A stretch of DNA of 64,000 nt from Hyphomicrobiales bacterium (lineage in GTDB: Bacteria; Pseudomonadota; Alphaproteobacteria; Rhizobiales; Rhizobiaceae): the NCBI GenBank assembly GCA_900467685.1, contig UBQX01000031.1, positions 1 to 64,000 on the forward strand. The letters are read 5' to 3'. Numbering within the stretch: the stretch's first letter is position 1; each line of letters opens with the position of its first letter. This document shows positions 19,310 through 51,379 of this stretch, piece after piece. The position numbers were made by a program, and so were the translations under genes. The notes under the pieces were generated by a model. It was not told the DNA's origin. It was given only the letters and a program-made list of their open reading frames with translations, and searched no databases.

Positions 19310-19327
19310 CGTCTGCACCCGATCGTC

Positions 19328-31257: not shown

Positions 31258-31815
31258 CTACTCCGCTCGGTCGTCCACCAATTCAAAGGTTCCAAGAACC
31301 GCGTCAACCAAGATGGCAATGGAGGAAACCACTGGACCGTCGACTAGCAAGCCACATTCGAGATTTGCCTTCTTCGAGCGCCAGAGGAAGTTTGCCGATC
31401 CAACATATGCGTCGCTGCCATCCGCGAGCACTATTTTGGAATGGAAGGTCTCATCCGTGTCGCCACCACCATAGAACCGGATGCTGGTGGAGAGGTCGCG
31501 CAGCGCGTTCTCATCCACACCGGGCTTATAAAGTTCGGCTTGCGACTGAAGTACGAGGATTCTCTCTGAAGCGGTCGTATAGCTGAACATATCGAGGACC
31601 CAGGCGCACCCGGCCGCGTCCATGTACGGTGACATGATCACCAGGCGTCGCTGAGCCTTCATCGCTAGATGACGGAAGGCGTCGCTAGTGTCCGTGAAGG
31701 CAAGCAGCTTAGCTGCGGGCGAGGCCGCAAGAATGCTCTCGATACGACTGGGAGATGGGGGCATCGTCACAACCAGGCGAGCCCTGCCCTGCGGCGCCAT
31801 GGAAGTGTCGGTCAC
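31258..31815 (-). CDS. drmC: DISARM protein DrmC (phospholipase D-like domain)
   Basis: A 185-residue protein with a single PLD-type motif, FHSKIVLADGSDAYVGSANF (HxK...D followed by GSAN, about 124-143), preceded by LVIMSPYMDAAGCAWVLDMF. Small PLD proteins at the end of a drmA-drmB operon are DrmC. The start is GTG overlapping the drmB stop (GTGA); a methionine six codons in is an alternative. DrmC was reported to be dispensable in some DISARM systems, as I recall. It is the last gene of the five-gene operon. Confidence 0.85.
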   Translation of the reverse strand: MTDTSMAPQGRARLVVTMPPSPSRIESILAASPAAKLLAFTDTSDAFRHLAMKAQRRLVIMSPYMDAAGCAWVLDMFSYTTASERILVLQSQAELYKPGVDENALRDLSTSIRFYGGGDTDETFHSKIVLADGSDAYVGSANFLWRSKKANLECGLLVDGPVVSSIAILVDAVLGTFELVDDRAE

Positions 31816-34031
31816 GTATCGAGCTCCGAACCGAAGTAGCCGACGATGTCAGCAGAGCCAGGAGCCTCCCATTCAGGCGCCGGGCCGCCTTTCAGGACTG
31901 ATCTGGAAAGCAACAGGTTTGACGCGCTGCATGAAACTTCGCTCACCATTATACAGGCTGGGCAGGCGCCGCCGCGGCTGTCACAGAGACTGCCTGAGCC
32001 GCATCGAAGCATTCGTGGATTGATCGAGCGGCGCAGGAAATCCATGGCGTGGTTTCGCCACATGGCCGAGATGTTGGCCAGATCCGGGGTCATTCCCTTC
32101 CGGTAGATCGTGAATGCGAGATCGGCGGGGAAAATGTACTCGCCGATGCCATCTCGGTCGAGGCCGGATGCATCCGCCAGTGAGTGGATAAGCTGGTGGG
32201 ACAGGGAGTGGAGGAGCATGTAGACGAACGGCGCGAGCTCGCGCGATCTGCCCTGTCGTTCCTTGTTCTTGTACTTGTCGAGGAACTGGCCGAAATCTTG
32301 GTAGGATTCTAGATACGCTCTTGCGAGGTCTGATCCGGAGGCGGGGAGACCTTCCACATTGTTTATCTGGAGCCATCTCAGGACGCGCTGCTCGTCAAGC
32401 TTGATATAGAGCGCCTCGTTTTTCTGCTGGGTGACGTAAATCGGCCTGTCACCATCGCGCATCGTATCGAACGCTACCAGGCGCACGGGCATTGGGACTT
32501 TGCGGTTGTTAGACTCACGCTGGTACACTGGCGTCGCCGAAACGCGGGTGTAACCGAAACTGTACTCGCAGATCGGCAGGCTCCGGAGCAGATACATCTG
32601 GCTGATACCGGTCTTTCCGAATAGGTCCTTGATTTCCGCCTGATAGCGCTTCAGCTCGTCTGCTACGCCAGCCTTCTCCATGAGTGTGATATCGGGATTG
32701 AGGACATCAAGGGCCGTCTTCCGCACCCCGGCCTGCCCGTCCTGGATGTGTTCCTCCACGAAGGCTGCGTGTTCAATCGTCAATCTGATAGGATCGAACT
32801 TCCGAGCCCAATCCTTGCGGATCCCGACAGCGAACTCGATTGCCTCGCTCTGCAGTCTTCCTCTCTCGAGCAAACCTGCGTCGAACCAACCTTCGCGGAG
32901 CTTTCGCATCGCGTTGCCGAGATCGGCGCGATCGGGTGCTCCTTCGGCCCGCTTCTGGAACATCTTTCGAAGAGACGTATACTCTTCCCAATCGTCCTGC
33001 TTGCCAGCTTTCTCCAGGATGGACTCGATCTCCGCATCGGACGGCTCCTGATACGGTATGGAATGAATCTCGGCGAGCTTTTGCAGAAGCTCTTCCGTAT
33101 GTGTCGTCCTCATCAGCTCGACGACCTTGGTCTCCCGAAGTTCGATAAAGCTAGCGCGCTGCGGATAGAAGGCGCTGCTTGCTCGATACGATACCGGCAG
33201 CATATCGATTTCGATCCACTCGAAGGACTTGCCGCCAGGCTGTAAACTGTCGGTTTTGAGCTTCTGGAGGACATGCCGTTCGGCCTTTTTGAGATCGCGC
33301 GGCGTCCCGCATCCTTCGCAGACGTACCTCCATTCCGAAAACACAGGAGCGCTGTTTTTCAGAGTAAAGTGCTGCCACCCGCATGTGCAGTGCGTAATCT
33401 GCCGAGTCGTGCCCGTGCGATCGTCGAAGGTATAGTTATAGGGGCTCAGCGGCTCGATTGTGCCGTACCAGTGTGCGTATACCACGTCGACTTGCGTCCA
33501 GCGGGATTCGTGGTCCTTGCAGCGAGCAGGTAGTTTCCTGTCGGCCAGTTCCGCGACGCTCTTGTATTCCCGGACGGTCCCACAATCCCCGCACTGAAAC
33601 AATAGCGGATAGGGTACGTAACCCACGACGTTCGGCTGGTTTAGAACGAAGTCGGTTTGGTTGACTCTAACTTCCTTGGTGGCGAGGTCGTAGAAGGCGT
33701 CGTCGAGAATAAATTCGTCCGGCGCATCTGGGCACCCGTCCTTCGCTCTCTCCTTCCAGCTTTCCGCGAATTCCCGGACACCCTCGAAGATGGTGTCGCT
33801 CACGTTTCTGGGCAGCCGCTGCGAAAACGGCATCTTGATCGGGACCGACTTGCAGATACCCCGCCCCCCTTCCCATGTCATCAGGACACCGGGAGCATAG
33901 GAAGTAGCGATTTGCGCCCGCGAGCGCTGCATGACTGGCGGCGCCGCCTTCTTTGCCGCTTCGGTCTCTTCGGCAGATGGATAGCGCTTCCGGCCGCGCT
34001 CCATGTCCAGCGTCTTCGCCCCACCGCTCAT
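31812..34031 (-). CDS. drmB: DISARM protein DrmB (DUF1998)
   Basis: A 739-residue protein of the DUF1998 class that pairs with the DrmA helicase. Cysteine pairs suggest zinc sites: CGDCGTV near residue 145, CTCGW and CEGCG further on, and a C-terminal cluster CGSGSLCDSRGGACPACIM near 684. The DUF1998 core LLHSLSHQLIHSLADASGLD is clear. I start it at the ATG at 34031, which has GGAGGG upstream and lies one base after the drmA stop; the frame is open for 15 more codons. In DISARM, DrmA and DrmB form the core complex that blocks incoming phage DNA. Confidence 0.85.
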   Translation of the reverse strand: MSGGAKTLDMERGRKRYPSAEETEAAKKAAPPVMQRSRAQIATSYAPGVLMTWEGGRGICKSVPIKMPFSQRLPRNVSDTIFEGVREFAESWKERAKDGCPDAPDEFILDDAFYDLATKEVRVNQTDFVLNQPNVVGYVPYPLLFQCGDCGTVREYKSVAELADRKLPARCKDHESRWTQVDVVYAHWYGTIEPLSPYNYTFDDRTGTTRQITHCTCGWQHFTLKNSAPVFSEWRYVCEGCGTPRDLKKAERHVLQKLKTDSLQPGGKSFEWIEIDMLPVSYRASSAFYPQRASFIELRETKVVELMRTTHTEELLQKLAEIHSIPYQEPSDAEIESILEKAGKQDDWEEYTSLRKMFQKRAEGAPDRADLGNAMRKLREGWFDAGLLERGRLQSEAIEFAVGIRKDWARKFDPIRLTIEHAAFVEEHIQDGQAGVRKTALDVLNPDITLMEKAGVADELKRYQAEIKDLFGKTGISQMYLLRSLPICEYSFGYTRVSATPVYQRESNNRKVPMPVRLVAFDTMRDGDRPIYVTQQKNEALYIKLDEQRVLRWLQINNVEGLPASGSDLARAYLESYQDFGQFLDKYKNKERQGRSRELAPFVYMLLHSLSHQLIHSLADASGLDRDGIGEYIFPADLAFTIYRKGMTPDLANISAMWRNHAMDFLRRSINPRMLRCGSGSLCDSRGGACPACIMVSEVSCSASNLLLSRSVLKGGPAPEWEAPGSADIVGYFGSELDT

Positions 34032-34032
34032 C

Positions 34033-37000
34033 TCAACCCTCCAGTCTTTCGATCTCGCCATCGGTTTCCGCGGCATCCCCGCGCTGCCGTCGGATTGCCC
34101 TCATGACGGCGGCGATGGCAGCGGCATCCATTATGCGCGTGTTTCCTGAGGCGTTGCGGTCGAAGTCCGCGGCTACGATCAGGCCGGCCTCGTCCACGTC
34201 GCGAAGGGAGGTCATCGGCTTCTTGAGCGTCGAATCCTGCTCTTCCCAGTAGCGCCGCAACTTGGCCTCGTAATTCAAATCCCTAATCGCTCTGCTGAGG
34301 TTCTGGGACGCGGCGGCGGTGCGGCTTCGGTAATATTCCCCCGCAACGGGCTCGCCGAGCGCATCGGGGCCTTTTCCGGCGAACCCCATCGAGGCGAGCA
34401 TGAAGGAGCCGATGTCGTTGGCGAAGCCAAGTGTATCCTTCGCGGCCAGTCGGCTCAGTATTGTGGTCGAGTCCCGGGTGACGAATTCCAACTTCCGACT
34501 ATCGGGCAAGTTGAGAAAGTTGCTGGCGTCACCGAGCATCGCCCAAGTCTGGAGGTATGACGCACGGACCCGGTCGATCGCAGCGTCCGACCACCGCTCC
34601 ACGGCAGGCGGGGCGATCATTCGCTCCAGGAAGCGGTGAAAGATGTCGTGGGTTTCGATCACATACCGGTCACGGCGGCTTTGCGGGGTGGGAAGCAGCA
34701 TGACGAATCCAACGTGAGTTCGGCCGACGCGGCTTGAGGCCTGGATGTATTCTGCGATGTCGGAAGGCAGCCCCGCAAAGAACATACTGTTGAACCTGTC
34801 CACATCGACTCCATGACTGATAGCCGAGGTGGCGACGATGTTCCTGAGCGTCTCGCCGATCTCTGGATATCCAGTGTGAGCGAATGACGTCTCGGCGTCC
34901 TTCATCACGCTCTGGATTTCCTGCATGTCGATGCCGCCGGAGATCAGTCTGCTGCGGAACTTGGTCTGAGGAATTCCCGCAACCGCGTGCTTCTGTACCA
35001 CGGCCGAGTGAAGAGCGTCGATGATCTGATCGCCGCCCTTCTTGTTGGTCACGTAGGCGAGCGCAATTCGATGGAGGTCCACGAGAGCCATGATCTCGTC
35101 TTCGCGTCCCTCGGTCGTAGCGCGCTCGATCGCGGCACGTCTCCAGACACCTAGAATTCCAGGCGATACCGATGCGGCGAGTTCGCTGATGGCGGCCTGA
35201 GTGCGGGCGGGATCGAGCAGATCTCTCCAGAGATGGGAGATGACGGTGTGGAACGAGCTTAGGACTCCGACCGTAGTCACGGTATGGGTAGCGTCATTCG
35301 TCATCAGTGAGACATAGAGACGCATCCACGGCGCCGTCGCCTCCGGGGCGAGGTGGCTCGGCAGTTCCCTAGATTGAGCCACGCGTTCGCCATTTATCGG
35401 CGGGGCGCGATCTGGCTCGGCGAAGAATGAGCGATAGATGTCAGGGCCGGGGTACGGGTACCGCAGTGGCTTTCGCTGGTAGAGTGTCCTGAGCTGCCGA
35501 TCGGGATCGCTGATGGTGGCGGTTGCCGCCACGATCTTCGGAAGACGCGGAACGAGCTTGTTGGAAACATCCCTGTATCGACTTACAGCCAATTTCTCTC
35601 CGGCCATCTGGTCGATTGTCGTGAAGGTGTTGTCGAGCAGGGTGTCGAACAGACCACTGAACGTGCCCAGGCTTTCTTCGAGAAGGTGTGCTTCGTCCTG
35701 GATTATCAGCGATGGGAACGGGTCGACGAACACCTTGCTACCGTGCTCGTAGGCGGGAGCGACGCCACGGGAACCAACGGCCGCTGGGCCGTACTGCAGC
35801 GACTCCCTATCGGAGGGGCTGGACAGATGCCCGTCCGGACCAATCCACCGGGCAAGCCCGAACATGCCAAGGATTTCTGTAATGGTCGATGTGCTCTGGC
35901 CAAGCATTGCGAGCTTGTCGACGGTGCCGAGAACAATCGCGGGAGCGCGCTGGTATATGGTGTCATCGGTAAGAAGAAATGGAAGCGGGCTTAAGCCCCC
36001 ATGTGCCTTGTTCCACTCGCATTTCGCATCGAAGCAGATGATAGCGGCGAACTCGGCCTTTCCGCCGGACGCCTTGAACTTCCGCAGCCCGGTCGGTTGA
36101 TCGCAACATGGGCAGGTAGGGATCTTGTTGTAGGAAGCCTGGACTTCCTGGTACCGCTTGGCCTCCATGCTCCGGCCGTAGCCGATTTCCTGGTCGTCCG
36201 GGTAGTCGGCCAGATCCGGCAAGGCCGCCTTCATTTGGCTGAAGCGGTTTGGCGTGTTCGACGATCCGACCCAGAAACCGATCTCTATCGGCCAGTTTCC
36301 GACGTTCTTTTCCTTGCGAACGACTTCGCTCCACACGATGAGCCGCAAGAGGCGTTGCGCCTGCTGAAGAGTAAGGAGTCGAAGCGGATAGCGGATCATC
36401 GCGGTTATGCCGCGGTCCTTGCCCCGAAGTCTGTCAAGGAAGATGGCAAACACCAGTGCGCCGTAGAACGCCTCGGACTTGCCGCCGCCCGTGGGGAAGT
36501 AAAGTAGGCTTGCGGCCAGTTCATCGCGTTCGACGTCGAAGGCTTCCGCATATTCCTCCATTCGGGATGCGAAGGTCGGAATGTGGGCCAGTATGAAGGC
36601 AAGTTGAAATAGGCGCCAACCTCTTTCGGGGTCCTTGCGATCGCGTCGCGCAAAGGACTCATTCATCATCAGCCACGCTTGCCACGGCACCGCTTTCCGC
36701 CGAAGCCTGTCCGCCTCCGCTCCCATCGCTTGCCTAGCGGCGAGCGCAGCCTCGCGGGCGGAGATCAGCAGCCGTACGCCCTGCTCGATATGGCGCGCCT
36801 CCAGTCGCTGCCCGGCGAGGTCGGTTGCAAAGCGTTCCCGTTCTCGTGCCGCGTCCTCGTACGAAAGCCCTCGTGCGATTTCCGGTGCGAGATCCCGTTC
36901 CTCTCCATCGATCCACTTGCGATATTCGTCGACGAGAACGAGCAGATTGGAGACGTCATAACCGTCAGCCAGCGGTCGGAACCGGTATTCGACACGGTCA

Positions 37001-38367
37001 ATCCGACGCGGAACTATACGAGGCTGATTGAAACGCGGCGACCACGTGGTCGAGAGCTCGAGGCGTCCGTCCTCGATCTCTTGGCTCTCTACGCCGCAGT
37101 TCAAGCCTATTGCCGGGTAGGTCATGAAATCGCGGTATCTATATGATGGCTCTACGCGGTCGAGCTGAACTGGCCTGTGATGGCCTCGGACCATGTTCAG
37201 GGAGACGCTCGTCCCGAAGATGGCATTGCACTTGTACCGGGCCTCGACTTTGGAAAGCTCGGTGCAGCCGTTGTCGAGTGTGACACGGATCGATGCGCGA
37301 GAGGGATCCACGAAGTCTCGCTGTCGTTCGGCACGGAGGGCTACCGCCCTAAGGTCGGGGAGTATTTTCGGATCGGCGGGCGCCTTCAATAGCTCGGCGA
37401 TGAAGTTGTTCCAATCGGCTTCGCTGGCGGCGTTCGCTGGCGAGACGGTCTGGTCCCGCCAAGCGATTTTCGCGCCCTCTCCACGGAGCCATTCTGCAAG
37501 CTGCGCCAGCACCTCAGTGATCATGGTATTCGAGAACTGCTCGAACTGTTCCTTTAGGGCGCTTCCGGAAAGTGCCGCCGACCAGGTGAAACTAGGCAGC
37601 TTGAGGTCGATCCGCTTCCATTTCGGCGGGATGGCCGCGGGCGACAGCAGGGCCGTCGGGATCTGCGCGCCGCCGGTCACGAGCCTGCCAATGGCCGGGG
37701 ATGGAGCTGCATCTGGATCTTCGGTCCCATCTAGGGGAGCAGCTCCATCCGTCTCTTCCGTCTGACTACTTTCGGAGCTTCCGAAGCTGTCGAGGCTCGC
37801 CTTGTCCAGGATGATTCCATGCTTGCCGTATACACTAAGGCGAAGGCTGTCGCGGATCTCGCGTCTGCGCAAGTGAAGTGCCTCCCTCTCCTCCTGCGAC
37901 AACTCGTTCCAGTCCGAGCGATCTAGTTTCTCCTGGGCGTAAAGTTCCTGGCGACGTTCGCGGATCTCGTGGTCGATCTCCTGCTTCTTGTCCTTTCTCA
38001 TCTTGAAATCGATTGCGATACCGAACCGATCGGTGGAGATTTCCTCCCAAGTGGGAAGGACGCGTACGTAGACGGAAAACCGTGGAGTTACGGTGAGCTC
38101 GGACGAACTCTCTGCGTCGATGTTGAAGTCCATGCCGATCGCGGCAATCTTGATATCGGACGTTTCATCCTCGTTTTCACGCGACATCCTAGGCAGAAGC
38201 TGGCCTGAGAATGCGCTTCTGCGTGGGCTCTTGCCATAGACGATCCGGCCCGCCTCGTCGGTACCGCTTGCCCTTTGGGTGATCATGTTAACCAGCGCGT
38301 CGCATACAGCTTCCTTTAGCTCGACATCGATGCCAGAGAGTTCGGCGGGTGTCTTGGCCGTCATCAT
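34033..38367 (-). CDS. drmA: DISARM helicase DrmA
   Basis: A 1444-residue superfamily 2 helicase. Motifs in order: Walker A LLYFPTGGGKSEAFYGALVF (about residue 625), motif Ia-like IRYPLRLLTLQQAQRLLRLI, DEAH box LIIQDEAHLLEESLGTFSGL (about 890), motif III KIVAATATISDP (about 950), NIVATSAISHGVDVDRFNSM and motif VI YIQASSRVGRTHVGFVM (about 1210). A CPCCDQ...C zinc-like segment lies between motifs Ia and II. Length and neighbours match DrmA. Its ATG overlaps the stop of the upstream gene (ATGA). Confidence 0.88.
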   Translation of the reverse strand: MMTAKTPAELSGIDVELKEAVCDALVNMITQRASGTDEAGRIVYGKSPRRSAFSGQLLPRMSRENEDETSDIKIAAIGMDFNIDAESSSELTVTPRFSVYVRVLPTWEEISTDRFGIAIDFKMRKDKKQEIDHEIRERRQELYAQEKLDRSDWNELSQEEREALHLRRREIRDSLRLSVYGKHGIILDKASLDSFGSSESSQTEETDGAAPLDGTEDPDAAPSPAIGRLVTGGAQIPTALLSPAAIPPKWKRIDLKLPSFTWSAALSGSALKEQFEQFSNTMITEVLAQLAEWLRGEGAKIAWRDQTVSPANAASEADWNNFIAELLKAPADPKILPDLRAVALRAERQRDFVDPSRASIRVTLDNGCTELSKVEARYKCNAIFGTSVSLNMVRGHHRPVQLDRVEPSYRYRDFMTYPAIGLNCGVESQEIEDGRLELSTTWSPRFNQPRIVPRRIDRVEYRFRPLADGYDVSNLLVLVDEYRKWIDGEERDLAPEIARGLSYEDAARERERFATDLAGQRLEARHIEQGVRLLISAREAALAARQAMGAEADRLRRKAVPWQAWLMMNESFARRDRKDPERGWRLFQLAFILAHIPTFASRMEEYAEAFDVERDELAASLLYFPTGGGKSEAFYGALVFAIFLDRLRGKDRGITAMIRYPLRLLTLQQAQRLLRLIVWSEVVRKEKNVGNWPIEIGFWVGSSNTPNRFSQMKAALPDLADYPDDQEIGYGRSMEAKRYQEVQASYNKIPTCPCCDQPTGLRKFKASGGKAEFAAIICFDAKCEWNKAHGGLSPLPFLLTDDTIYQRAPAIVLGTVDKLAMLGQSTSTITEILGMFGLARWIGPDGHLSSPSDRESLQYGPAAVGSRGVAPAYEHGSKVFVDPFPSLIIQDEAHLLEESLGTFSGLFDTLLDNTFTTIDQMAGEKLAVSRYRDVSNKLVPRLPKIVAATATISDPDRQLRTLYQRKPLRYPYPGPDIYRSFFAEPDRAPPINGERVAQSRELPSHLAPEATAPWMRLYVSLMTNDATHTVTTVGVLSSFHTVISHLWRDLLDPARTQAAISELAASVSPGILGVWRRAAIERATTEGREDEIMALVDLHRIALAYVTNKKGGDQIIDALHSAVVQKHAVAGIPQTKFRSRLISGGIDMQEIQSVMKDAETSFAHTGYPEIGETLRNIVATSAISHGVDVDRFNSMFFAGLPSDIAEYIQASSRVGRTHVGFVMLLPTPQSRRDRYVIETHDIFHRFLERMIAPPAVERWSDAAIDRVRASYLQTWAMLGDASNFLNLPDSRKLEFVTRDSTTILSRLAAKDTLGFANDIGSFMLASMGFAGKGPDALGEPVAGEYYRSRTAAASQNLSRAIRDLNYEAKLRRYWEEQDSTLKKPMTSLRDVDEAGLIVAADFDRNASGNTRIMDAAAIAAVMRAIRRQRGDAAETDGEIERLEG

Positions 38368-41120
38368 GGCTTGAATCTCCGGGTGGCTCTGACTGGCGAC
38401 ACGTATTCTTCCGCGAGGCGTATCAGCCGGGCGATTTCGTCGGCGCGCTTGGTATCCCTGGCGAAAGCGAGAGAGGCGTCTGGATCAGTCAAGATGTTGA
38501 GGTAGGCGTCGTGGAACTCCATTCCGGCCTTCATTCTGAAGCTGCGCTGGGCGCGGACGCCCCAGTGCCAGAAGCGGTTCGCAAGATTGGTGGGAATCCC
38601 CAGTGCGGCCGTGAACTTGCTGAAGGTCTCGGGCTGTCGTGGGGCTTGGGTGACCACATCCTCCAGTCGGGCCTGCAGCTGCTTTTCGAGGTGAACCCAT
38701 CGACGAACTGTTGCGATCTGAAGATTGGCATCGCCCATCTTGTCTATGAGGGTTCGGATCTTGTCGCTCTCATGAAGTCCGCGCAGCTTTGCAAAGCGGT
38801 CCGCCACCTCTTCGTGGTAGTCGCGAATAGCTTCGGACGCATTCGCCTGGATGCTCAAAAGGAGGCGTGCTCGGTCAACGAAGCTGGAGCTGATGACGCA
38901 TATGTTATCCCGCTCGTGGACATCCCTGGCGTCAATTTTTCTAAAGGTCTGGATCGACCGCGAGGTGTCCAGGCGCACGAGTGCCGAACCGGGGCGAGCG
39001 ATAATCGTCTGACCGCCCTCCATCGTGAGCTCGATCAGTTCGCCGTCGGATTTGCTATAAGGCCCCACGAGGTTGATGACCGACTCTGACGGAAAATGTA
39101 CTTCCTCTGGCAGCTCCGGCGTCTCGGAGAGCTTGATCGGGGCCATGCCTAGACCGGTCACATCCTTCTCGGCATTGTCGGCGAAGAGTCGAAGTCTGGA
39201 CGCGATCTCCGGCTCCTGGATCTGCTCTGCCAATCGGGACGCGTCCCGCGCCGAATATTTGAGAGTGTCTCCGTCGGCAAGAACGATGACCTCGACGGGC
39301 AGCCATGTTCTGGCAAAGAAACTTAGAACTCCGTCGCGAGGCGGAGATACGACGAAGATCCTCTTGAATCTGTTTCGCTCGGACGGAGCGAGGCCAGCTA
39401 TGTCTGTGAGGCCTCCGGGGCCGGAGAAGACGATCATCTCGTTTTCGAGCTTGGCGCGCAAATCCGGGATGGCCCGGCAAAGATAGTCTTCTGCGAACTC
39501 GGCAAGGGTCTGCTTTCGGAACATGAAGAGTGTCTTGGACGACGAGTTAATGACCCTCCCGACGGCGTGCTCCAACATTCTCGACATCGGCGTTTCCCGA
39601 TTGAACGCCGTCATCACCGCCGATGCCTCCTGCAACGAGGCTGCCAGCTCGGACCCGCCGACGACAAATGCTCGCTGGGAAGGCTGCTGAAGCATCTGCA
39701 CTTGCGGTGCGACGCGGTAGTTCTCGATTACGTCCGCCGCAGCCGCCTGGCCATGCTCGTTGAAAAGGTACCGGTTGAACGCTGAAAAGGAGCCGGGAAG
39801 GCACGAGGTCCGGCGCAGCTTCGCGATGATCTCGTTGATCGCGGCAAGCCCGGCGGGATCGCCTCCCCGCTTCACCCGATGACGCACCGCCCGCAGGTCG
39901 TCCATGACCTTCCGCCCAGGCCCATTGAAGCCCTTGACTTGGACACTCCCTACCTGGGACCACGCGATCGCGTCATCGCGAGGTTTGAAAACCAGCGAGG
40001 AGAGTGCCGTGATCGTCTTGGATTTCGCAGGCTGGGGTTTGCGACCACGCAGTTCGTTCATCTCACTGAAGATCTCAAACCGTGCCTTGTCAAAGGTCCA
40101 CGGATCCTCAGTGATGGCGACGAAACCTGTGCCGGGAAATGCCATCCGCAGCAGCTTGTAAGTGCGGATGGCCCGATCGACCCAATCCTCGCCGAGCCGA
40201 CCTCTGCCTGTCCGTGTAAGGTCGAAGAGGATCAGGTTCAGGCCGCCACGTACCTTTCGCACCGCGTGTTCCTCTCCTCTTTTGAGGCCATAGAGGAAGT
40301 ACTCGGCTTGATTTCCATCATTTGCGTGCTTGCTGACGGTATTGTGTTCTCTGAGATCGGTTCTCGATGCTGTCCGCCAGAGAAGCGACCCGTTGGAGTG
40401 GACGATCCCGTCGCAACCGCCGTGGGGCAGGATTTCGTCCAGGGTCGGGTGCTCGAACTCAGGGCGTACGGTACCATCCCTGCCCTTCCCGGAAAGCGTC
40501 GAAACGCGGCTTAGTATCTGATGATAATCCTTGAGGGATCGGGCATCGTCATTTTCGACACTGTGTCTGTGCAGATGGTCGAGATGGGTGCGATGAAGGT
40601 ATTTCCGGTCGACTTGGATATCGCGGGCCTGCTCGTGAGTGGTTCTCGCGTACGGGTAGATCAAAGCCTTGAAGCCCTTAGGCCGTTCAAATGACTTCAC
40701 CTTTACGCCGTATCTGTCGATCGTGGTTTCCGGAGCCACGGCGATGTTAGCAAGGGTAAGCAGCGACGCGATAGCTGATAGGCAGATGTCTCGCTCCGGC
40801 CAGGTCATCAGGACCGTCGGCTCGCCCTTCTCCGATGCCTCAATTGCTGCTCTCAGGATCTCATTGTAGACGTCGGAAAGTGGCTGAGGGTCTTCGCCAA
40901 CCGGCCGAAGCGGAACGTTGGCAAGCGCGGCAAGACGCGCATCGGCAATGGCGGCAATCCTGGAGTTTTCGTTGGCCAGATCTTCGCCCAGGAAGCGCTT
41001 TTGCGCCTTCTCGGTTGAACGAGCGGCAAGCAGAGCGCTACGATGCTTCGCGTTCTCTTCACGCTGGCGCAGGCGGTCGGACAGCGATGTGTTGGGGGCT
41101 CCTCGGAAGCTGCCTCTCAT
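38364..41120 (-). CDS. DrmE-like DISARM component (918 aa)
   Basis: A large protein without Walker A, DEAH or other SNF2 motifs, so it is not DrmD. Visible features are a charged N-terminus, VLMTWPERDICLSAIASLLT near 105, LNLILFDLTRTGRGRLGEDW near 290, VINSSSKTLFMFRKQTLAEF near 530 and a C-terminal helical block with FSKFTAALGIPTNLANRFWH and DAYLNILTDPDASLAF. Size, lack of helicase motifs and position beside drmA fit DrmE, the class 2 component, but I judge this by eye. It starts at the ATG overlapping the methyltransferase stop (TGATG) and overlaps drmA by four bases, so it belongs to the same coupled operon. Confidence 0.55.
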   Translation of the reverse strand: MRGSFRGAPNTSLSDRLRQREENAKHRSALLAARSTEKAQKRFLGEDLANENSRIAAIADARLAALANVPLRPVGEDPQPLSDVYNEILRAAIEASEKGEPTVLMTWPERDICLSAIASLLTLANIAVAPETTIDRYGVKVKSFERPKGFKALIYPYARTTHEQARDIQVDRKYLHRTHLDHLHRHSVENDDARSLKDYHQILSRVSTLSGKGRDGTVRPEFEHPTLDEILPHGGCDGIVHSNGSLLWRTASRTDLREHNTVSKHANDGNQAEYFLYGLKRGEEHAVRKVRGGLNLILFDLTRTGRGRLGEDWVDRAIRTYKLLRMAFPGTGFVAITEDPWTFDKARFEIFSEMNELRGRKPQPAKSKTITALSSLVFKPRDDAIAWSQVGSVQVKGFNGPGRKVMDDLRAVRHRVKRGGDPAGLAAINEIIAKLRRTSCLPGSFSAFNRYLFNEHGQAAAADVIENYRVAPQVQMLQQPSQRAFVVGGSELAASLQEASAVMTAFNRETPMSRMLEHAVGRVINSSSKTLFMFRKQTLAEFAEDYLCRAIPDLRAKLENEMIVFSGPGGLTDIAGLAPSERNRFKRIFVVSPPRDGVLSFFARTWLPVEVIVLADGDTLKYSARDASRLAEQIQEPEIASRLRLFADNAEKDVTGLGMAPIKLSETPELPEEVHFPSESVINLVGPYSKSDGELIELTMEGGQTIIARPGSALVRLDTSRSIQTFRKIDARDVHERDNICVISSSFVDRARLLLSIQANASEAIRDYHEEVADRFAKLRGLHESDKIRTLIDKMGDANLQIATVRRWVHLEKQLQARLEDVVTQAPRQPETFSKFTAALGIPTNLANRFWHWGVRAQRSFRMKAGMEFHDAYLNILTDPDASLAFARDTKRADEIARLIRLAEEYVSPVRATRRFKP

Positions 41121-42781
41121 CACGACGCCTCCGAAAACGATTGAACGTAACCGTTTCGGTAGGCAGCGACGGCGGCCTCCTCTATGTCGCCGGTCTCCTG
41201 TAATGCAGTTCGGAATGCGTGTGGAGATGGGAGATCGAGCGCACGCAGCAGCGTCACGGAGACAGTGGCGGTTCCCGAAACTGCGCGATAGCGTTCATCC
41301 ACGGCCTTAGTATTAAGGAGCGACACGAGAAGGTCGAGATCCGCGGCGTCGGACGCGGAAAGGACGATGGTGTGGTTTTCCGAGACAAAGCCCTTCCACG
41401 GAGCAATCGCATCCCGGTCAACTGTTGCGGCGACGATGCGGCGGGGCTGGCTGCTATTCGTGACGCGCTGCACGATGGCGGCAGGTCCGTCGATGATTGC
41501 GGTGCTGCCGGGAGGGACGCGGACGAAGTCGACGCCGTCACCACTGCGGTTCAAGGGACGGCAGAGGCTCTTTGCCCTGACATTTTTCGCCCAGAACAAG
41601 GGGTACGCCTGCTCGTCGGCAGGATCGCAAATTCTGTCCCATTGGCGGTTCCATACGAAGTACCCTGATTTCGCCGAGACGCCATAGTCCGACAGGGTTG
41701 CGCCGCCGCGATCCTTCCGCGCGTCGGTTCCTGCCAACCAGGGGGACGATATGTCCTTGGGAAGCGGGCCAGCCGGGACAGGGTGTGAGACACCCGCCCC
41801 CGTTATTGCCGGAAACTTCACCCGATGCTTGGTCCGGTGAGGAGCGCCCCTCCTAACCAGTAAGACACTGACGTCTTGCGCAACGTCGGCAAAGACGTCG
41901 TCCCGGTTCGTGACCGTCCCCAGCGCCAGGATCTGGCCCTGGCTTGCAACATAAGACCTCATGCGGTCATACAGCGGGCCACCTCGGAAGCTGGATGGAA
42001 TGACGAGTGCGACGAGACCGCCCATCTTCACCAAGCGCAGGCAAAGCTCGGTGAAGACGGCGTACTTGTTGATGTGGTTGCCATGCGCGACCTTCCCCCA
42101 AGTCTCTTCCGCCAGTTCGTCCGGTCTCATGCGCCCGTATGGAGGATTGGCAATCACAAGATCGTAGGATCCGTCCGTCCTTGCGTGGATGCTGTCTCCA
42201 ACCTTGACGATCTGGCGACTCCGGAAGCCTTCAAGCTGTTCGGCGATTAGAAATTCCGACATTCGTGCAAGGCGCTCGTCGATCTCGATGCCGTTCAAAC
42301 GGTTGGCGATGTCTATCTTCGGAACGCCAGCACGGTACATCCTGTCCGCAATCAGTGAGAGAAACGCAGCTCCTCCGGCGGCAGGATCCAGGACGTCGTG
42401 CTTTCGGACATCGAAGCCATGGTCCGATGCCATGTCGATGACGGCGTTCGCCAGATACGGCGGCGTAAAATAGGCGGCCTGCGCCCGGCGATCCGCAGGC
42501 GACATCATCAGCGTATAGAGCGTGCCACGCCAATAGTTGCGGTCATGAGGCGACAATGCGGCGAGTCTGGTCCTGAAGATCGCAACTTCCTTGTGTTCGA
42601 AAGGATTCAGGTCAATGCAGACGGTGTCGATGTCACAATGGTCTGGCAGATTCTTTAGAAGCGCGCGCGCAGCGGCTTTCGCGACCGTGAGCATCGGCCA
42701 CACAGTTTGTCCCCTCGCCGTCAAATCCCCAGCCTCGCACTTCCCGCACTCCAGCGGTATCGCTGGCGCCGTCCCAAGCAA
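41120..42781 (-). CDS. Adenine-type DNA methyltransferase of the DISARM operon (DrmMI-like)
   Basis: A 553-residue class I DNA methyltransferase of the N6-adenine/Eco57I-like type. It has AAYFTPPYLANAVIDMASDH, the AdoMet motif I DVLDPAAGGAAFLSLIADRM (about 131) and the catalytic motif IV VIANPPYGRMRPDEL (about 212), then a target-recognition-like C-terminus. There are no C5-cytosine (PCQ) motifs. I take the TTG at 42781 because AGGAAGGA lies a few bases upstream; an ATG at 42694 would lose 29 residues. It is the first gene of the defence operon and should mark host DNA as self. Confidence 0.85.
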   Translation of the reverse strand: MLGTAPAIPLECGKCEAGDLTARGQTVWPMLTVAKAAARALLKNLPDHCDIDTVCIDLNPFEHKEVAIFRTRLAALSPHDRNYWRGTLYTLMMSPADRRAQAAYFTPPYLANAVIDMASDHGFDVRKHDVLDPAAGGAAFLSLIADRMYRAGVPKIDIANRLNGIEIDERLARMSEFLIAEQLEGFRSRQIVKVGDSIHARTDGSYDLVIANPPYGRMRPDELAEETWGKVAHGNHINKYAVFTELCLRLVKMGGLVALVIPSSFRGGPLYDRMRSYVASQGQILALGTVTNRDDVFADVAQDVSVLLVRRGAPHRTKHRVKFPAITGAGVSHPVPAGPLPKDISSPWLAGTDARKDRGGATLSDYGVSAKSGYFVWNRQWDRICDPADEQAYPLFWAKNVRAKSLCRPLNRSGDGVDFVRVPPGSTAIIDGPAAIVQRVTNSSQPRRIVAATVDRDAIAPWKGFVSENHTIVLSASDAADLDLLVSLLNTKAVDERYRAVSGTATVSVTLLRALDLPSPHAFRTALQETGDIEEAAVAAYRNGYVQSFSEAS

Positions 42782-42834
42782 CCGTGATCCTTCCTCGGAG
42801 CTGCACTAGACGCACGAACCCCGCATCCCAGAGT

Positions 42835-42894
42835 AGTATTTGCATTTCTCTGAAGATGTCAAAGTTTAAAACGAGTTTGCGGACGCAATTGCGT
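42835..42894 (-). promoter_or_regulatory. Putative promoter and palindrome of the DISARM operon
   Basis: On the minus strand TTGACA (42862-42857) and AATACT (42840-42835) are spaced by 16 bases, about 50 bases before the methyltransferase start. Twenty bases upstream of the -35 lies ACGCAATTGCGT (42883-42894), a perfect 12-base palindrome that may be an operator. Confidence 0.5.
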
Positions 42895-43279: not shown

Positions 43280-44413
43280 CTAGACAATCCCCCACGCCCG
43301 AAACCTCCCTCTCCCGGTCATCTCCCTCAAACCAAGCTCCTGCACGATCCGGCGCGCTCCCTGCGGCGTCACCTCAAGTGTCTTCGCCACCATGCCGGCC
43401 GAGATCAACGGCCGCGCCATGACGAGCTCGACGAGCTCTGGCAGCCTGGATGACGTTCGCCGTCCTTCGAGTTTGCGCATCATCATCTGCCGCGCCAGCA
43501 CCAGGCGATCATGTTCTTTCAGCCCCGTCTCGGCGGAGTTTGTCAGCGCCCTTGCTATCGCCAGCAACCGCGTCTCCCGATCTCGATGCCGGCGCCGATC
43601 GACAGGAATAGCCTTGAACCCCAAATTGATCGCCGCGAGATGTCCGCCGGTGGTCACACCGCCTTCGCGAAGCACCGAGGCGGCCAATAGCCGACCGAGC
43701 CAAGGCGCATGCTGGAGCACGGCGATCTCATTCCAGGCGTCGAGGGCGACGATGGCCTGCAGGACCGGTGGCAGATCCTGGGACCGCGCCAGCACGGCCT
43801 GCCACTCCGCCAGCCGCTCGTCCTCATCCCAGTCGAGGTCGTAGACGAACGGATCCTTGTCCGAAGTGTTTTTCGCGCGCCCCGGCTTCTTCGCTTCTTC
43901 AATCGCGGCGTCCGAGCGGGCAAGAACCGCATCGATCGCGGCAAACGCATCACCCAGACCATCATTGTCGGGATCCTCCGCCTCCCCTACCTCTGCCCCA
44001 GTGCCGCCCACCTCAACATTGTTATCCGGCAGCCCCTCCCCGTCGCCACCCAATGATGCAGCGGGCCACGCCCGCCCGCGCAGCGAAGCGAGGCCTTGAG
44101 CGGAGAGCGCCCAACCAGGCGGATGGGCGGCGATGCGGCGTCGGGTTTTCAGGATGTCGCGGGCGATGGTGAGTTCGTGCGTGGGTGCGCGGATGTCGCG
44201 AAGCGCGTCGTGCAGGACGAGGTCCTCGAGATGGACGAGTTCCCCATCGACCCAGAGCGAGGCATGCGCCTCAAGGAAATGCGAGCGCTCCAGAAAGCCC
44301 TCGCCGACGGCAGAACGGGCAATGCGCTCATCAAGACGGGCAAGCGCGACGGCGGCCTCGGAAATCGGCCGCAGCAGGCTCTGGATGGGCAATTTCGTCA
44401 GATTGTAAGACAT
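43280..44413 (-). CDS. RHE_PE00001-type plasmid protein (DUF1612 with helix-turn-helix)
   Basis: A 377-residue protein of a family found mainly on rhizobial plasmids. The N-terminal half ([60 protein letters not shown]) is a Fic-like/DUF1612-associated region. The middle is low-complexity and acidic (about 125-165). The C-terminus has DUF1612 and a helix-turn-helix ([20 protein letters not shown], about 340-359). Such proteins are probably DNA-binding and often lie near repABC. A long inverted repeat 84 bases upstream of its ATG may be its operator. Confidence 0.82.
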
Positions 44414-44496
44414 TGAAATTATGGTAAATGATTCGTTAAGAGAAAGCTATATGTTGAATAGGGTTCTGTACTCCTCATTAGTGCTCCCGGAGTGCC

Positions 44497-44529
44497 TCAC
44501 TTCCGATAAGTAACCCTTATCGGAAGTGA
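44497..44529. promoter_or_regulatory. Perfect 14-base inverted repeat (TCACTTCCGATAAG / CTTATCGGAAGTGA)
   Basis: TCACTTCCGATAAG (44497-44510) and its exact reverse complement (44516-44529) are separated by TAACC. Outer bases GCCTCA and TGAGGC (44494-44499 and 44536-44541) extend the symmetry. There is no T-tract, so an operator or protein-binding site is more likely than a terminator. It lies between the divergently placed RHE_PE00001-type gene and the 3' end of the PemK-like toxin gene. Confidence 0.6.
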
Positions 44530-44628
44530 TTGATTTGAGGCAGGTGAAGGCTTAGAGTCGTGGTAACCACGTCCGGAACAGAAGCTGGACGGCGGAGCTT
44601 GAAGGCGAACAACAGGATGACGAACTAT

Positions 44629-45060
44629 TCAATCGCTGCGAACGGTGGCTTTGTGACGCTGGCTTCGGGCGAGCTCCACAAACCGGCGCTTCACCTCCTC
44701 GAACAAGGCCGGGGGCAGCGGCCCGTGATATCCGCTCTCGCTGTCAACAGGGCGAACGTCAGGTCCCGGCCAAACAAAGCGGTTGCTTTCGGTCAGCACG
44801 ATCCACGACCGTTCGTCATCGAGACCCAGGCGGCGCTTGGTGGCAGGGGGGATTTCGATTGCTTCGCTGGGATCGGACGGTGGGGAATGCGTGATCGGCA
44901 AAATACGTACCGCGGGTGTCCCGTCTTCAAGCGTCGCAACAATCGCCAGTACGAGCGCAGGGCGGTCCTTGTCCCCTTCCTCCCGTCCTTCCAGATGCTG
45001 CCAATGCCAAAGATAGGAATAGCGAAAGACCCAGCCGACCTTGGGTTCAGTCGGCAACAT
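44629..45060 (-). CDS. PemK/MazF-like toxin
   Basis: A 143-residue protein with a PemK-like start (PKVGWVFRYSYLWHWQHLEG, then DKDRPALVLAIVATLEDG) and the core VRILPITHSPPSDPSEAIEI. Such proteins are growth inhibitors, usually ribonucleases, in plasmid addiction modules. The gene overlaps the 3' end of the upstream antitoxin gene by 14 bases, the normal arrangement for a coupled antitoxin-toxin pair. Length is longer than classic PemK (about 110 residues) because of an extra C-terminal helix. Confidence 0.72.
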   Translation of the reverse strand: MLPTEPKVGWVFRYSYLWHWQHLEGREEGDKDRPALVLAIVATLEDGTPAVRILPITHSPPSDPSEAIEIPPATKRRLGLDDERSWIVLTESNRFVWPGPDVRPVDSESGYHGPLPPALFEEVKRRFVELARSQRHKATVRSD

Positions 45061-45325
45061 TCTTGTCCATCAGCAGTTCGCCGTTGAGATGATCAAGGCC
45101 CGTCTCCATCGTCGAAGCCTCAATCGCGGCCAGCTCGTCATCACTGATCGCAGCCGTCAGATCGACGCGTCGGTCCCGCTTGGCCAGCCGAAGGTAGTCT
45201 TCATAGGCCATGAGCACTGTGCGGGGCCGACCGTTCTTGGTGATGATCACTGGCTCTCGCACGGCGGCATCCTGATATGCACCGAAATTCTTCGAAACCG
45301 CAGCTGCTGTCACAATCGACGTCAT
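45047..45325 (-). CDS. Phd/YefM-type antitoxin
   Basis: A 92-residue antitoxin starting MTSIVTAAAVSKNFGAYQDA, followed by EPVIITKNGRPRTVLMAYEDY, the Phd/YefM DNA-binding fold. Its C-terminal part (DDELAAIEASTMETGLDHLN) would wrap the PemK-like toxin encoded next. It probably represses its own promoter; two TTCCGGAA palindromes lie just upstream. The frame is open further upstream, but this ATG fits the family start. Confidence 0.85.
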   Translation of the reverse strand: MTSIVTAAAVSKNFGAYQDAAVREPVIITKNGRPRTVLMAYEDYLRLAKRDRRVDLTAAISDDELAAIEASTMETGLDHLNGELLMDKNVAD

Positions 45326-45340
45326 GGCAGATCTCCTTTG

Positions 45341-45366
45341 TTCCGGAATATACGGGCTTTCCGGAA
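45341..45366. promoter_or_regulatory. Paired TTCCGGAA palindromes, antitoxin operator candidate
   Basis: Two copies of the 8-base palindrome TTCCGGAA (45341-45348 and 45359-45366), 18 bases apart start to start, lie 16 bases before the antitoxin ATG and 37 bases before the divergent integrase-DUF736 gene. The spacing suits cooperative binding of antitoxin dimers. Confidence 0.55.
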
Positions 45367-45402
45367 TTTTTGCAAATTCTCTAAAGAATCTACAATCACA
45401 AG

Positions 45403-46239
45403 ATGAAGACAAAAGCTCCAAACGCCCTTTCCAGCAGCGAAACACTTGCGCGCCGGGTGGAAGAGCTCGATACCATCGCGTCCGTCTTGCCGATGGAGCG
45501 GCGTGACGAACTCGCCGAGTTGCTGACGGATCAGGATGTCGAGACGCTGCGCCATCTGGTCAATCAGGGAATGGGAGAAAATACCCTTCGAGCCCTGACG
45601 TCAGATCTTGCCTATCTGCAGGCTTGGTCGCTGGCTGCGATAGGCCGCTCCCTTTCCTGGCCGGCACCCGAAGCCCTGCTTTTGAAGTTTGTGGCGCATC
45701 ATCTTTGGGATCCAGAAAAACGTTTGCAGAATCCTGACCACGGGATGCCACTAGATGTCGAGGATAAGCTTCGGCTCCAGGGTCTACTACGATCGACTGG
45801 ACCTCATGCGCCTGACACTGTGCGCCGGCGCCTTGCCACCTGGTCGACGTTGACAAAATGGCGCGGGCTGGATGGCTGTTTCAGTTCCCCTGCCCTCAGG
45901 TCCGCAATCCGATTGACCAACTTCATCCAGTTCGACAAAGACGACATCGACAACGCCAAGGGAACCGGCCTCATCTCCACCATCGACCGGGACCTGGACA
46001 TCAAGGTTACACCGTTCGACTCCACCAACGAAAAGGCTCCAACGCATCGCGTCTATGCCAAGTCACCTCGCGGCCACGACATCGAAGTTGGCGGCATCTG
46101 GAAGAAGACTAACGGAGAAGGGAAGCCGTACTACACCCTCTCCATCAAGCGCCTCGGTTTCAACGCCAACTTGGGCCGCTACCCCGGCCAAGATGACCTG
46201 GCACTGCAGGCCATCATCGAATGGGAACCCCGCGATTGA
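45403..46239 (+). CDS. Chimeric protein: integrase N-terminal part fused to DUF736
   Basis: A 278-residue open frame made of two unrelated parts. Residues about 35-171 match the N-terminal SAM-like region of rhizobial tyrosine integrases (NQGMGENTLRALTSDLAYLQ, ALLLKFVAHHLWDPEKR, APDTVRRRLATWSTLTKWRG) and stop before the catalytic domain. Residues about 173-278 match DUF736 (GTGLISTIDRDLDIKVTPFD, VGGIWKKTNGEGKPYYTLSI), a small plasmid protein of unknown role. The join near base 45916 is in frame, most simply from a deletion between an integrase gene and a DUF736 gene. It has no recombinase activity; whether the DUF736 half functions is unknown. Two hairpins follow it. Confidence 0.8.
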   Translation: MKTKAPNALSSSETLARRVEELDTIASVLPMERRDELAELLTDQDVETLRHLVNQGMGENTLRALTSDLAYLQAWSLAAIGRSLSWPAPEALLLKFVAHHLWDPEKRLQNPDHGMPLDVEDKLRLQGLLRSTGPHAPDTVRRRLATWSTLTKWRGLDGCFSSPALRSAIRLTNFIQFDKDDIDNAKGTGLISTIDRDLDIKVTPFDSTNEKAPTHRVYAKSPRGHDIEVGGIWKKTNGEGKPYYTLSIKRLGFNANLGRYPGQDDLALQAIIEWEPRD

Positions 46240-46246
46240 TCGCTCT

Positions 46247-46325
46247 GGGAGGCCCGATCTCTGATCGGGCTCCCACCATAAAGAGCCGCTTACCCCGCAT
46301 TCGCTGGATATTCGGCTCTTTTTGT
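46247..46325. terminator. Two hairpins after the chimeric gene, the second with a T-tract
   Basis: GGGAGGCCCGATC and GATCGGGCTCCC (46247-46274) form a strong stem with one bulged base and no T-run. AAAGAGCCG (46280-46288) and CGGCTCTTT (46313-46321) form a second stem followed by TT, making a T-rich end. They separate the DUF736 chimera from the VbhA/Fic pair. Confidence 0.6.
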
Positions 46326-46357
46326 GCTAAGTTGAATAGTAACTGGAGGCTCTACCA

Positions 46358-46564
46358 ATGAACGTTCATGCCCCTCGCCCCGATCGCTCTCCGGAAGCTG
46401 TTGCAGCCCGACAGAAAGCCGTCGATCAGGCTCGTGCTGCCAATATGCGGCAGGGTTACACTGGCGATCCGGTTTTGGAAGAAGCAAACGGCCGTTACGT
46501 TGCGGGAGATATCACTTCCGAGGAAATGCGCCAAGAGTTGTTGGCCCGCTTCAAGCGGGCTTGA
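46358..46564 (+). CDS. VbhA-like antitoxin of a Fic toxin
   Basis: A 68-residue protein aligning with VbhA: AVDQARAANMRQGYTGDPVL, then EEANGRYVAGDITSEEMRQE. VbhA blocks its Fic partner by inserting a helix with the motif S/TxxxE(G/N). At that position this protein appears to read A28-N-M-R-Q32-G33, so both the Ser/Thr and the inhibitory Glu seem to be replaced. The partner gene follows after a terminator-like hairpin. The alignment is by eye from memory of the family. Confidence 0.75.
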   Translation: MNVHAPRPDRSPEAVAARQKAVDQARAANMRQGYTGDPVLEEANGRYVAGDITSEEMRQELLARFKRA

Positions 46565-46587
46565 TCATCACTTAGATATTTCTCGCG

Positions 46588-46617
46588 GCCGCCTGTGATC
46601 TCAGGCGGCTTTTTTGC
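46588..46617 (+). terminator. Intrinsic terminator between antitoxin and Fic toxin
   Basis: GCCGCCTG (46588-46595) and CAGGCGGC (46602-46609) form a perfect 8-base stem with a 6-base loop, followed by six T. The Fic ATG begins three bases after the T-run. Most transcripts should stop here, which would keep toxin levels below antitoxin levels. Confidence 0.85.
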
Positions 46618-47694
46618 ATGAGGTTTCGCTTGGCCCGCGATGATGAAGCCAAAGGCTCCTACACCTATCCAAACACTTCAGAGGATAAGGATTTCAGGGA
46701 TGTTCTGAAGAACAAGCTGGATATCAGAAGCCATTCGGCGCTGCGTGAGGCCGAATACGCTTTCACGGCTTTGAGGCAAACGGAGCTGGCTGAGGGAAAA
46801 GGTCCGACCGGTAATCACGACGCAGCGCATCTGAAGGCTCTGCACGGCTACATCTTTCAGGATGTCTATGAATGGGCAGGACATACGCGAAATGAAAGTC
46901 CTGTCGTCGATGGCCAGCGGGTAGAGCCGGTAGGTGGGCTTTCGAAGGGCGACACAACTTTCCTCCCCGGCTCGCGCATCGAAATGGGTCTCAACGAGGC
47001 GCTGAGGCCCGCCAGAGACGATCAGGGCCTAAGAGCTGCGACACCTGAGCAATTTGCCGAGAAAGCCGCGCACGTCCTTTCTGAGCTGAATTACGTTCAC
47101 GCTTTTCGGGAAGGCAATGGAAGGGCAAACGAGGCGCTAGTGGTCTCGTTGGGCCGCACCTACGGTCATGACATCGATCTTACCGTCATCACCAAGCCTC
47201 GCATGATCGAGGCATCCATTGAGACCACCAATGATCCGTCCAGTCCGGCGATGAAGCATCTCATCCAGGATGCGATGGATCCTAACCGCCGCGAGGCTAT
47301 CCGCAGTGCCATGTCAGATCTTGAGCAGGCTGGCGAGAATCCGTTCGAGCACAACATCCGGACGGCCCGCCCGGGCGAAGTGATCGAAGGGCAGGTTCTC
47401 GGGCACGACAATCGCGTGGCGAGCCTCGTGACCGACAGGGGGATTGTGGCCGTTGACCGCGCTGACCTTCCCGAGCGAATGCCTCCCGACGACGAGGAGG
47501 TGAAGTTCACCGCTCGATCTGATTTCAAGACTCTGGGGCGGCCGGAACAGGTCCAAGATGCCCAATCGCCGCCAGGTCAGCAAAAGGCCCAAGAGCCTCA
47601 GTCGCAGCACATCAACGCCGAGCTTAAGGCGATCGAAGCGCAGCAGCTTGCCGATCGCCAGCGAAACCGCGACCAAGACGACCGAGAGCGCTGA
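46618..47694 (+). CDS. Fic-domain protein, VbhT-like, with altered Fic motif
   Basis: A 358-residue protein: Fic domain (about 1-200), an OB-like segment (VIEGQVLGHDNRVASLVTDR, about 257-290) and a charged tail ending RQRNRDQDDRER. The Fic motif reads HAFREGNGRANE (161-172). Canonical HPFx(D/E)GNGRxxR keeps catalytic His and the first Arg, but the Pro is Ala and the second Arg, which holds the ATP gamma-phosphate, is Glu. No BID domain is present, unlike Bartonella VbhT. The ATG lies directly behind a terminator with no Shine-Dalgarno; a TTG at 46630 is an alternative start. The tail resembles that of the relaxase at 56046. Confidence 0.85.
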   Translation: MRFRLARDDEAKGSYTYPNTSEDKDFRDVLKNKLDIRSHSALREAEYAFTALRQTELAEGKGPTGNHDAAHLKALHGYIFQDVYEWAGHTRNESPVVDGQRVEPVGGLSKGDTTFLPGSRIEMGLNEALRPARDDQGLRAATPEQFAEKAAHVLSELNYVHAFREGNGRANEALVVSLGRTYGHDIDLTVITKPRMIEASIETTNDPSSPAMKHLIQDAMDPNRREAIRSAMSDLEQAGENPFEHNIRTARPGEVIEGQVLGHDNRVASLVTDRGIVAVDRADLPERMPPDDEEVKFTARSDFKTLGRPEQVQDAQSPPGQQKAQEPQSQHINAELKAIEAQQLADRQRNRDQDDRER

Positions 47695-47914
47695 CCTGCG
47701 GCCCGGTCGCTGCAGTGAGGGCCTGTGTCATTGGCCGGGGTGCCGGAGCTCTGCGCCCTCCCCTGTCCGTTGGATGATTTGACGGACAAACTACGATAGC
47801 CCCTCCCCCATTCAACCGCTGCGCGGTCCTACACTCCGTTGCGGCCCTACGGGTGCATGGGGTCGTTTCGCTATCTTCGGATCTTTGCCGTCAACCAACG
47901 AACAGGAGACGGCG

Positions 47915-48784: not shown

Positions 48785-48827
48785 GGCCCTTCGCAAAACT
48801 GTCGGGCCTCATGCGCATCGATCCAAA

Positions 48828-48879
48828 ACTTTACAACTGTAAAGTCGGGCATCCTTGATGCGTTAACTTCTTGTTAACG
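48828..48879. promoter_or_regulatory. repABC upstream palindromes (partition-site or operator candidates)
   Basis: ACTTTACAACTGTAAAGT (48828-48845) has perfect 8-base arms round AC and resembles repABC parS palindromes, although the outer GTT/AAC and central GC of the usual consensus differ. CGTTAAC and GTTAACG (48861-48867, 48873-48879) form a second dyad round TTCTT. Both lie in the 179-base region that should hold the repA promoter. Confidence 0.45.
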
Positions 48880-48963
48880 AAAAACGCCTTGAAGAATCGG
48901 AGTCAGTCTGGCATCCCTGACGGAAATGATCTCGTAAAGTGATCAGAACCGTCAGAGGTTTGA

Positions 48964-51188: not shown

Positions 51189-51231
51189 TCGAGACACTCG
51201 TTAATTGGTCAAGAGGAGAGACCGCGACAAA

Positions 51232-51286
51232 AGAAAAAGGCCCCCAAAACGTTTCCGTCATGGAAGCCTCTCTCAATTCCTAGCAA
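51232..51286 (-). ncRNA. Counter-transcribed RNA controlling repC
   Basis: In the repB-repC gap the minus strand carries TTGACT (51320-51315) and GATTCT (51297-51292) spaced by 17 bases, then a transcript of about 55 bases with a hairpin, AGGCTTCCA pairing with TGGGGGCCT through two G-U pairs, followed by TTTTTCTTTT. Position, length and structure match the antisense RNA of repABC plasmids, which limits RepC synthesis and determines incompatibility. End points are estimates. Confidence 0.8.
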
Positions 51287-51379
51287 GATCGAGAATCGCA
51301 TTTCCATGAATCCCAGTCAAGAGTCTTTGGCATCGTTTTGGTGAGCGGATTTCTTTTGCCTGAAGAAAGGTGAAGGAAT

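Follow-up and report, generated by a model that had tools for sequence, protein, structure and literature searches.

Organization of the operon and of its carrier plasmid

The window (the whole stretch of DNA analysed, 64,000 nucleotides of contig UBQX01000031.1 from a Hyphomicrobiales bacterium) carries, on the minus strand between positions 31258 and 42781, five tightly packed genes arranged head to tail. They encode a predicted N6-adenine DNA methyltransferase (MTase; 41120–42781), a large protein designated here as E (38364–41123), the helicase DrmA (34033–38367), DrmB (31812–34076) and a DrmC-like protein (31258–31815). The original prediction placed the upper end of the operon at 42862, which lies 81 nt past the first start codon. 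It also described the gene order as fully start/stop-overlapping, and this is nearly right: three junctions are 4-nt overlaps (GTGA for MTase/E, ATGA for E/DrmA and GTGA for DrmB/DrmC), but the DrmA/DrmB overlap measures 44 nt, or gives way to a 1-nt gap if ATG 34031 is the start of DrmB. The latter start may be the genuine one, as it corresponds to the DrmB start in relatives. Two other starts are alternative: the MTase ORF counts 553 aa from a TTG and its conserved start is probably ATG 42694, and the E ORF counts 919 aa from a GTG and 918 from the next ATG.

The location on a plasmid, already proposed from the letters, is borne out by replication and partition genes repABC on the plus strand (48964–52618; Pfam AAA_31, RepB and RP-C) and by a traG gene (58750–60837; Pfam), both within the window. 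Beside the operon, the region 43280–52618 encodes an RHE_PE00001/DUF1612 protein, a Phd/YefM antitoxin, a DUF736 protein, a Fic protein and an ArdC-like antirestriction protein in addition to repABC, so that one plasmid groups defence and antirestriction genes.

A divergent DISARM core

The assignment of three of the genes to the DISARM core holds by the HMMs of both PADLOC and NCBIfam, although DrmA, DrmB and DrmC are divergent and all score below the NCBIfam curated cut-offs. DrmA (1444 aa), a YprA-family SF2 helicase, matches NF038325 (1.6e-114, below cut-off) and the PADLOC DrmA model (2.6e-97), and keeps intact the motifs PTGGGKS, DEAH, TATI and QASSRVGR; the profile of its clade matches the DrmA of PDB entry 7s9v (7.2e-77). 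DrmB (754 aa), which has Cys clusters at both ends, is encoded by an ORF separate from and adjacent to that of DrmA and matches the PADLOC DrmB model (1.4e-20) and NF038324 (1.3e-16, below cut-off). The DrmC-like protein (185 aa) belongs to the phospholipase D (PLD) family, with a single HKD motif (HSKIVLADGSDAYVGSAN) and matches to NF038319 (3.2e-12) and Pfam PLDc_2 (2.4e-8). The operon thus possesses the core proteins of DISARM in general, i.e. a DrmA helicase, a separate DrmB and a PLD-family DrmC.

In the DrmA tree, which carries long-branch warnings, the clade of the window DrmA is monophyletic with a support of 100 and groups with the DrmE-associated DrmA of haloarchaea, separate from class 1. 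The clade profile aligns with the haloarchaeal DrmE-associated DrmA over nearly its full length (19–1388), whereas it aligns with class 1 DrmA over 330–1256 only.

E, a remote relative of DrmE

The original prediction held that E lacks helicase motifs and resembles DrmE. Indeed, E shows neither a conserved Walker A nor any other recognised catalytic motif. It is without match in PADLOC, Pfam, NCBIfam or the PDB sequences; a search of the PDB sequences with the E profile returned chance matches only. The HMM comparison that had been proposed as a check settles the case of DrmD, as E has no match to it in PADLOC and hhalign gives 0.1%. For DrmE the outcome is different: the DrmE HMMs (PADLOC DrmE, NF038316 and NF038323) are negative on E, the DrmE_fam model has no match in the genome, and kinship appears by profile-profile comparison only.

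For this comparison, the E profile was built from 14 relatives gathered from plasmids and genomes. The DrmE references came from haloarchaeal plasmids (L016, PADLOC 2.4e-90; L022, NF038316 9.3e-30), to which three weaker ones from Cyanobacteria, Haladaptatus and Streptomyces were added. The two families match in hhalign with a probability of 98.1% (E 8e-14), and the match is collinear (columns 399–876 versus 287–791), covering about 480 C-terminal residues; against haloarchaeal DrmE alone, the E family reaches 95.8% (E 7.6e-9). A shallow E profile had given 56% in a first hhalign run, a value that rose to 98.1% with more sequences. As controls, the full E profile was compared with nine unrelated proteins and with the DrmA, DrmB and MTase families, and no probability exceeded 1.2%; column shuffles of the E–DrmE comparison stayed at or below 0.4%, and the profile in reverse reached 3.3%. 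One subgroup of E matches DrmB at 23%. Because the match to DrmE stands so far above the controls, E qualifies as a remote homologue of DrmE over its C-terminal part.

The AlphaFold model of E, computed from four sequences, has a mean pLDDT of 37.7, too poor for a fold search, and we therefore infer both the fold and the role of E. The DrmE profile matched a designed protein, and this match was discarded.

A type II adenine methyltransferase

The MTase carries DPAAGGAAF as motif I and NPPYG as motif IV and matches Pfam Eco57I (5.1e-12) and N6_Mtase (1.2e-11). A profile of 12 of its relatives, all of which keep NPP[YF], matches solved adenine MTases of the PDB, including BseCI and TaqI. The adenine-type assignment originally made from NPPYG is thereby supported, and C5 specificity, the competing outcome, did not emerge. 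In PADLOC the enzyme falls in family PDLC03338 (2.1e-93), and no DrmMI model is found among the best 25 of 54 PADLOC matches. In a related genome (G022), the neighbour of a BsuBI/PstI-type restriction enzyme is a PDLC03338 MTase that shares 32% identity with the window MTase over 459 residues. Judged from these matches, the MTase is a member of a type II (PstI/BsuBI-type) family, neither DrmMI nor DrmMII.

No cognate restriction endonuclease lies beside the MTase, whose neighbours are E, DrmA, DrmB and DrmC on one side and an RHE_PE00001 family gene on the other. A C5-cytosine MTase acting in trans was considered and rejected, as PF00145 has no match anywhere in the genome that carries the operon, the control search being positive in 10 of 14 genomes. 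M.PstI and M.BsuBI are adenine methylases of the site CTGCAG. From family kinship only, CTGCAG is therefore a candidate m6A site of the MTase; its count in the window (33 observed versus 35 expected) matches expectation and is uninformative on the site.

Conservation and distribution of the operon

In every one of the 14 distinct loci whose flanks are known, drmA directly follows the gene for E; these are the loci of the window, Rhizobium sp. J15, S. americanum, R. alarense, Mesorhizobium AR07, G036, G817, Sphingomonas YK209, R. phaseoli, R. johnstonii 3841, Polaromonas CJ2, Afipia OM5, G1011 and G350; a fifteenth locus (G135), cut by a contig end, is outside this count. In 12 of the 14, from both alpha- and betaproteobacteria, the gene next upstream of E codes for an MTase. 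As to the remaining loci, the MTase gene of R. johnstonii pRL10 lies downstream of drmC, and R. phaseoli carries E, drmA, drmB and drmC without an adjacent MTase gene, its only N6-type ORF being distant and on the other strand. The MTase of Afipia OM5 is 16% identical and belongs to a different lineage, and the MTase is therefore not a fixed marker of the clade. Overall, the pairing of an adenine MTase with a diverged DrmE recurs in at least 12 other genomes.

Comparisons of the window with its nearest relatives gave dN/dS values of 0.06–0.11 for the MTase, E, DrmA and DrmB (for DrmB against one relative only), and the MTase, at 0.06–0.07, is the most strongly constrained of these four genes. 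All four are under purifying selection. Since the cassette is found in 13 other distinct loci and four of its genes show such constraint, the operon is more than a chance assembly.

Some copies are incomplete. In Rhizobium sp. J15 (L004), the MTase, E, drmA and drmB genes are intact and no drmC follows position 19312, which suggests that DrmC is not essential or comes from another source. A decaying copy of the operon lies on plasmid A of S. americanum CFNEI 73 (L007, 17534–23385): its drmB is interrupted by IS66-type insertions, and about 21 codons are left of its drmC. In R. alarense TRM95111 (L006, 8287–9989), the MTase is encoded in two overlapping ORFs (443 and 124 aa) instead of one. With drmC missing or truncated in two relatives and this MTase split, some copies may therefore decay or dispense with parts.

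The operon is patchily distributed. With the clade DrmA profile, 4 of 298 Rhizobiaceae genomes score 2191–2297 bits and every other DrmA at most 226; likewise, 4 of 398 genomes of the phylum score 1423–2289 bits and the rest at most 215. A search of viral contigs for relatives of E and of the clade DrmA found none. In the annotated relatives examined, the parts are named hypothetical protein, N-6 DNA methylase, DEAD/DEAH box helicase or helicase-related protein, and DISARM is absent from the annotation. Because its parts bear such names only, a whole DISARM lineage is missed by annotation.

Relationship with known systems

DISARM has been described as two fixed packages, an adenine MTase with DrmD and a cytosine MTase with DrmE (PMC9252829, PMC9142583), and the class definitions used here are those of these two papers. 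In PADLOC, type I requires DrmD and DrmMI, and type II requires DrmE and DrmMII (PMC9252829); by the PADLOC models, the operon is of neither type.

The operon resembles class 2 by its DrmE-like protein, encoded directly upstream of split DrmA and DrmB, by its PLD-family DrmC and by its DrmA, which is nearest to the haloarchaeal DrmE-associated DrmA. It differs from class 2 by a DrmE too diverged for the DrmE HMMs and recognised by profile-profile comparison only, and by the replacement of the C5-cytosine MTase DrmMII, which was not found, with an adenine MTase of another family. With class 1 it shares an adenine-type MTase and DrmA, DrmB and DrmC, but neither class 1 hallmark is present. The genome lacks DrmD, the SNF2 helicase of class 1, as the sole candidate, a weak helicase-domain match on another contig, was rejected. 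The MTase is a type II enzyme of 524–553 aa whereas the MTases of the class 1 loci examined (L018, L076, L080, L081 and L083) have about 1260–1480 aa, and the operon's DrmA stands outside the class 1 clade. Kinship with PstI/BsuBI restriction-modification (R-M) systems is limited to the MTase, which is of PstI type and in the same PADLOC family; the operon differs from them by having no restriction enzyme and by the linkage of the MTase to a DISARM core.

The operon also shares a YprA-family helicase with ARMADA, Druantia and Dpd, and ARMADA includes a methyltransferase as well. By the descriptions in the YprA-family survey PMC12458937, the operon differs from these systems by having DrmA and DrmB as separate genes, by its PLD-family DrmC and by the absence of a RapA-like helicase, of a fused C-terminal nuclease and of a base-modification cluster. 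The marks of ARMADA (a RapA/BrxHII-like helicase, a PglX-like MTase and an unsplit YprA helicase) were not found in the operon, and none of ARMADA, BRIGADE and TALON, as the survey describes them, fits it; the tree of the survey may already contain the operon's clade, unnamed.

The pairing of an adenine MTase with a diverged DrmE thus lies outside the two textbook classes, and the operon is a conserved mixed-class DISARM. The original prediction of a hybrid or third class stands as regards this position outside both classes. Since the MTase is of type II and not DrmMI-like, the operon is not simply a class 1 MTase joined to a class 2 DrmE, and "third class" is a naming choice; the literature searched, of partial coverage, gave no description of this arrangement as a known DISARM class or otherwise.

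Proposed function and alternative explanations

Taken together, these comparisons make it probable that the five genes form a complete anti-phage system of the DISARM type, in a lineage of its own, in which a class-2-like DrmE core would use a PstI/BsuBI-type N6-adenine MTase, in place of a C5-cytosine enzyme, as DNA marker. The mechanism proposed here draws on the solved structure of class 1 DrmAB (PMC9142583). By analogy, the MTase would place m6A marks at a short site in the DNA of host and plasmid, and DrmA and DrmB would form a split helicase that inhibits itself as long as it has not met unmarked DNA with single-stranded 5′ ends; loading on the single-stranded or 5′-overhang ends of incoming unmarked DNA would switch it on. 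As no catalytic motif is recognised in it, the diverged DrmE would most likely be a non-catalytic adaptor or DNA-recognition subunit of the DrmA/DrmB complex. DrmC, lost in some copies, may for this reason be an accessory nuclease. Between loci the MTase differs in lineage or in position, whereas the order DrmE-DrmA-DrmB is constant; the MTase is therefore probably a self-marking component that can be exchanged.

A different target is conceivable, although rather unlikely: the chief target of the operon could be competing plasmids and other DNA that arrives by conjugation, not phages. The operon and many of its relatives are plasmid-borne (a plasmid collection having been searched on purpose), and PMC9142583 mentions that DISARM acts against conjugation, yet such exclusion is compatible with phage defence and the present data do not separate the targets.

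We consider it somewhat less likely still that the MTase is an independent orphan or an R-M remnant beside a diverged class 2 DISARM, whose DrmE-DrmA-DrmB-DrmC set would be functional with self marked otherwise. Its membership of a PstI-type R-M family would fit such an origin, as would the arrangements of R. phaseoli and R. johnstonii and a haloarchaeal Haloplanus locus (L016) in which DrmE-DrmA-DrmB-DrmC stands without adjoining MTase. Against this speak the GTGA overlap with E, the adjacency to E, on its upstream side, in 12 of 14 loci across two proteobacterial classes, the strongest constraint among the tested genes and the lack of a restriction enzyme in the operon. Finally, repair enzymes do occur among YprA-family helicases (PMC12458937), but a YprA/MrfA-type DNA-repair or housekeeping helicase operon is highly improbable given the split of DrmA and DrmB, their association with DrmC, a DrmE-like protein and an MTase, the patchy distribution and the plasmid location.

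The chances are about even that Proteobacteria harbour a third natural DISARM class, which arose when a type II (PstI-like) adenine methyltransferase was captured by a DrmE-type core. If so, the DISARM effector would be indifferent to the chemistry of the self-mark, and DrmE (or DrmAB) would read DNA structure, with the methyltransferase as an exchangeable module. A DrmE core with a different mark offers a direct test of what DISARM takes as self and of the role of DrmE.

Other DISARM-like loci

The searches also retrieved several unusual loci. On Streptomyces cellulosae plasmid CP109198.1 (L030, 2494–13606), a DPPY-motif MTase gene is divergent from genes for a DrmE-like 829-aa protein, DrmA, DrmB and a PLD-family DrmC. 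This non-C5 MTase beside a DrmE-like protein means that the textbook pairing is not strict, and MTase exchange in DrmE systems may therefore be general. An odd DISARM-like locus (L082, G382:C89, 613–13000) encodes DrmA and DrmB after two other proteins, the first of 1792 aa, weakly AAA-like at its N-terminus and DrmE-like at its C-terminus, and the second of 580 aa and NERD/UvrD-like. In Haladaptatus sp. QDMS2 (L029, 3991–16005), the DrmE-like protein is enlarged to 1144 aa and a pentapeptide-repeat gene comes after the DISARM core. Lastly, Roseomonas sp. OT10 (L017, 7317–14347) and genome G913 (L075) carry a separate DrmA/DrmB lineage with no DrmE-sized gene upstream; the Roseomonas locus has a sigma-70-like gene before drmA and a C5 MTase gene after drmB.
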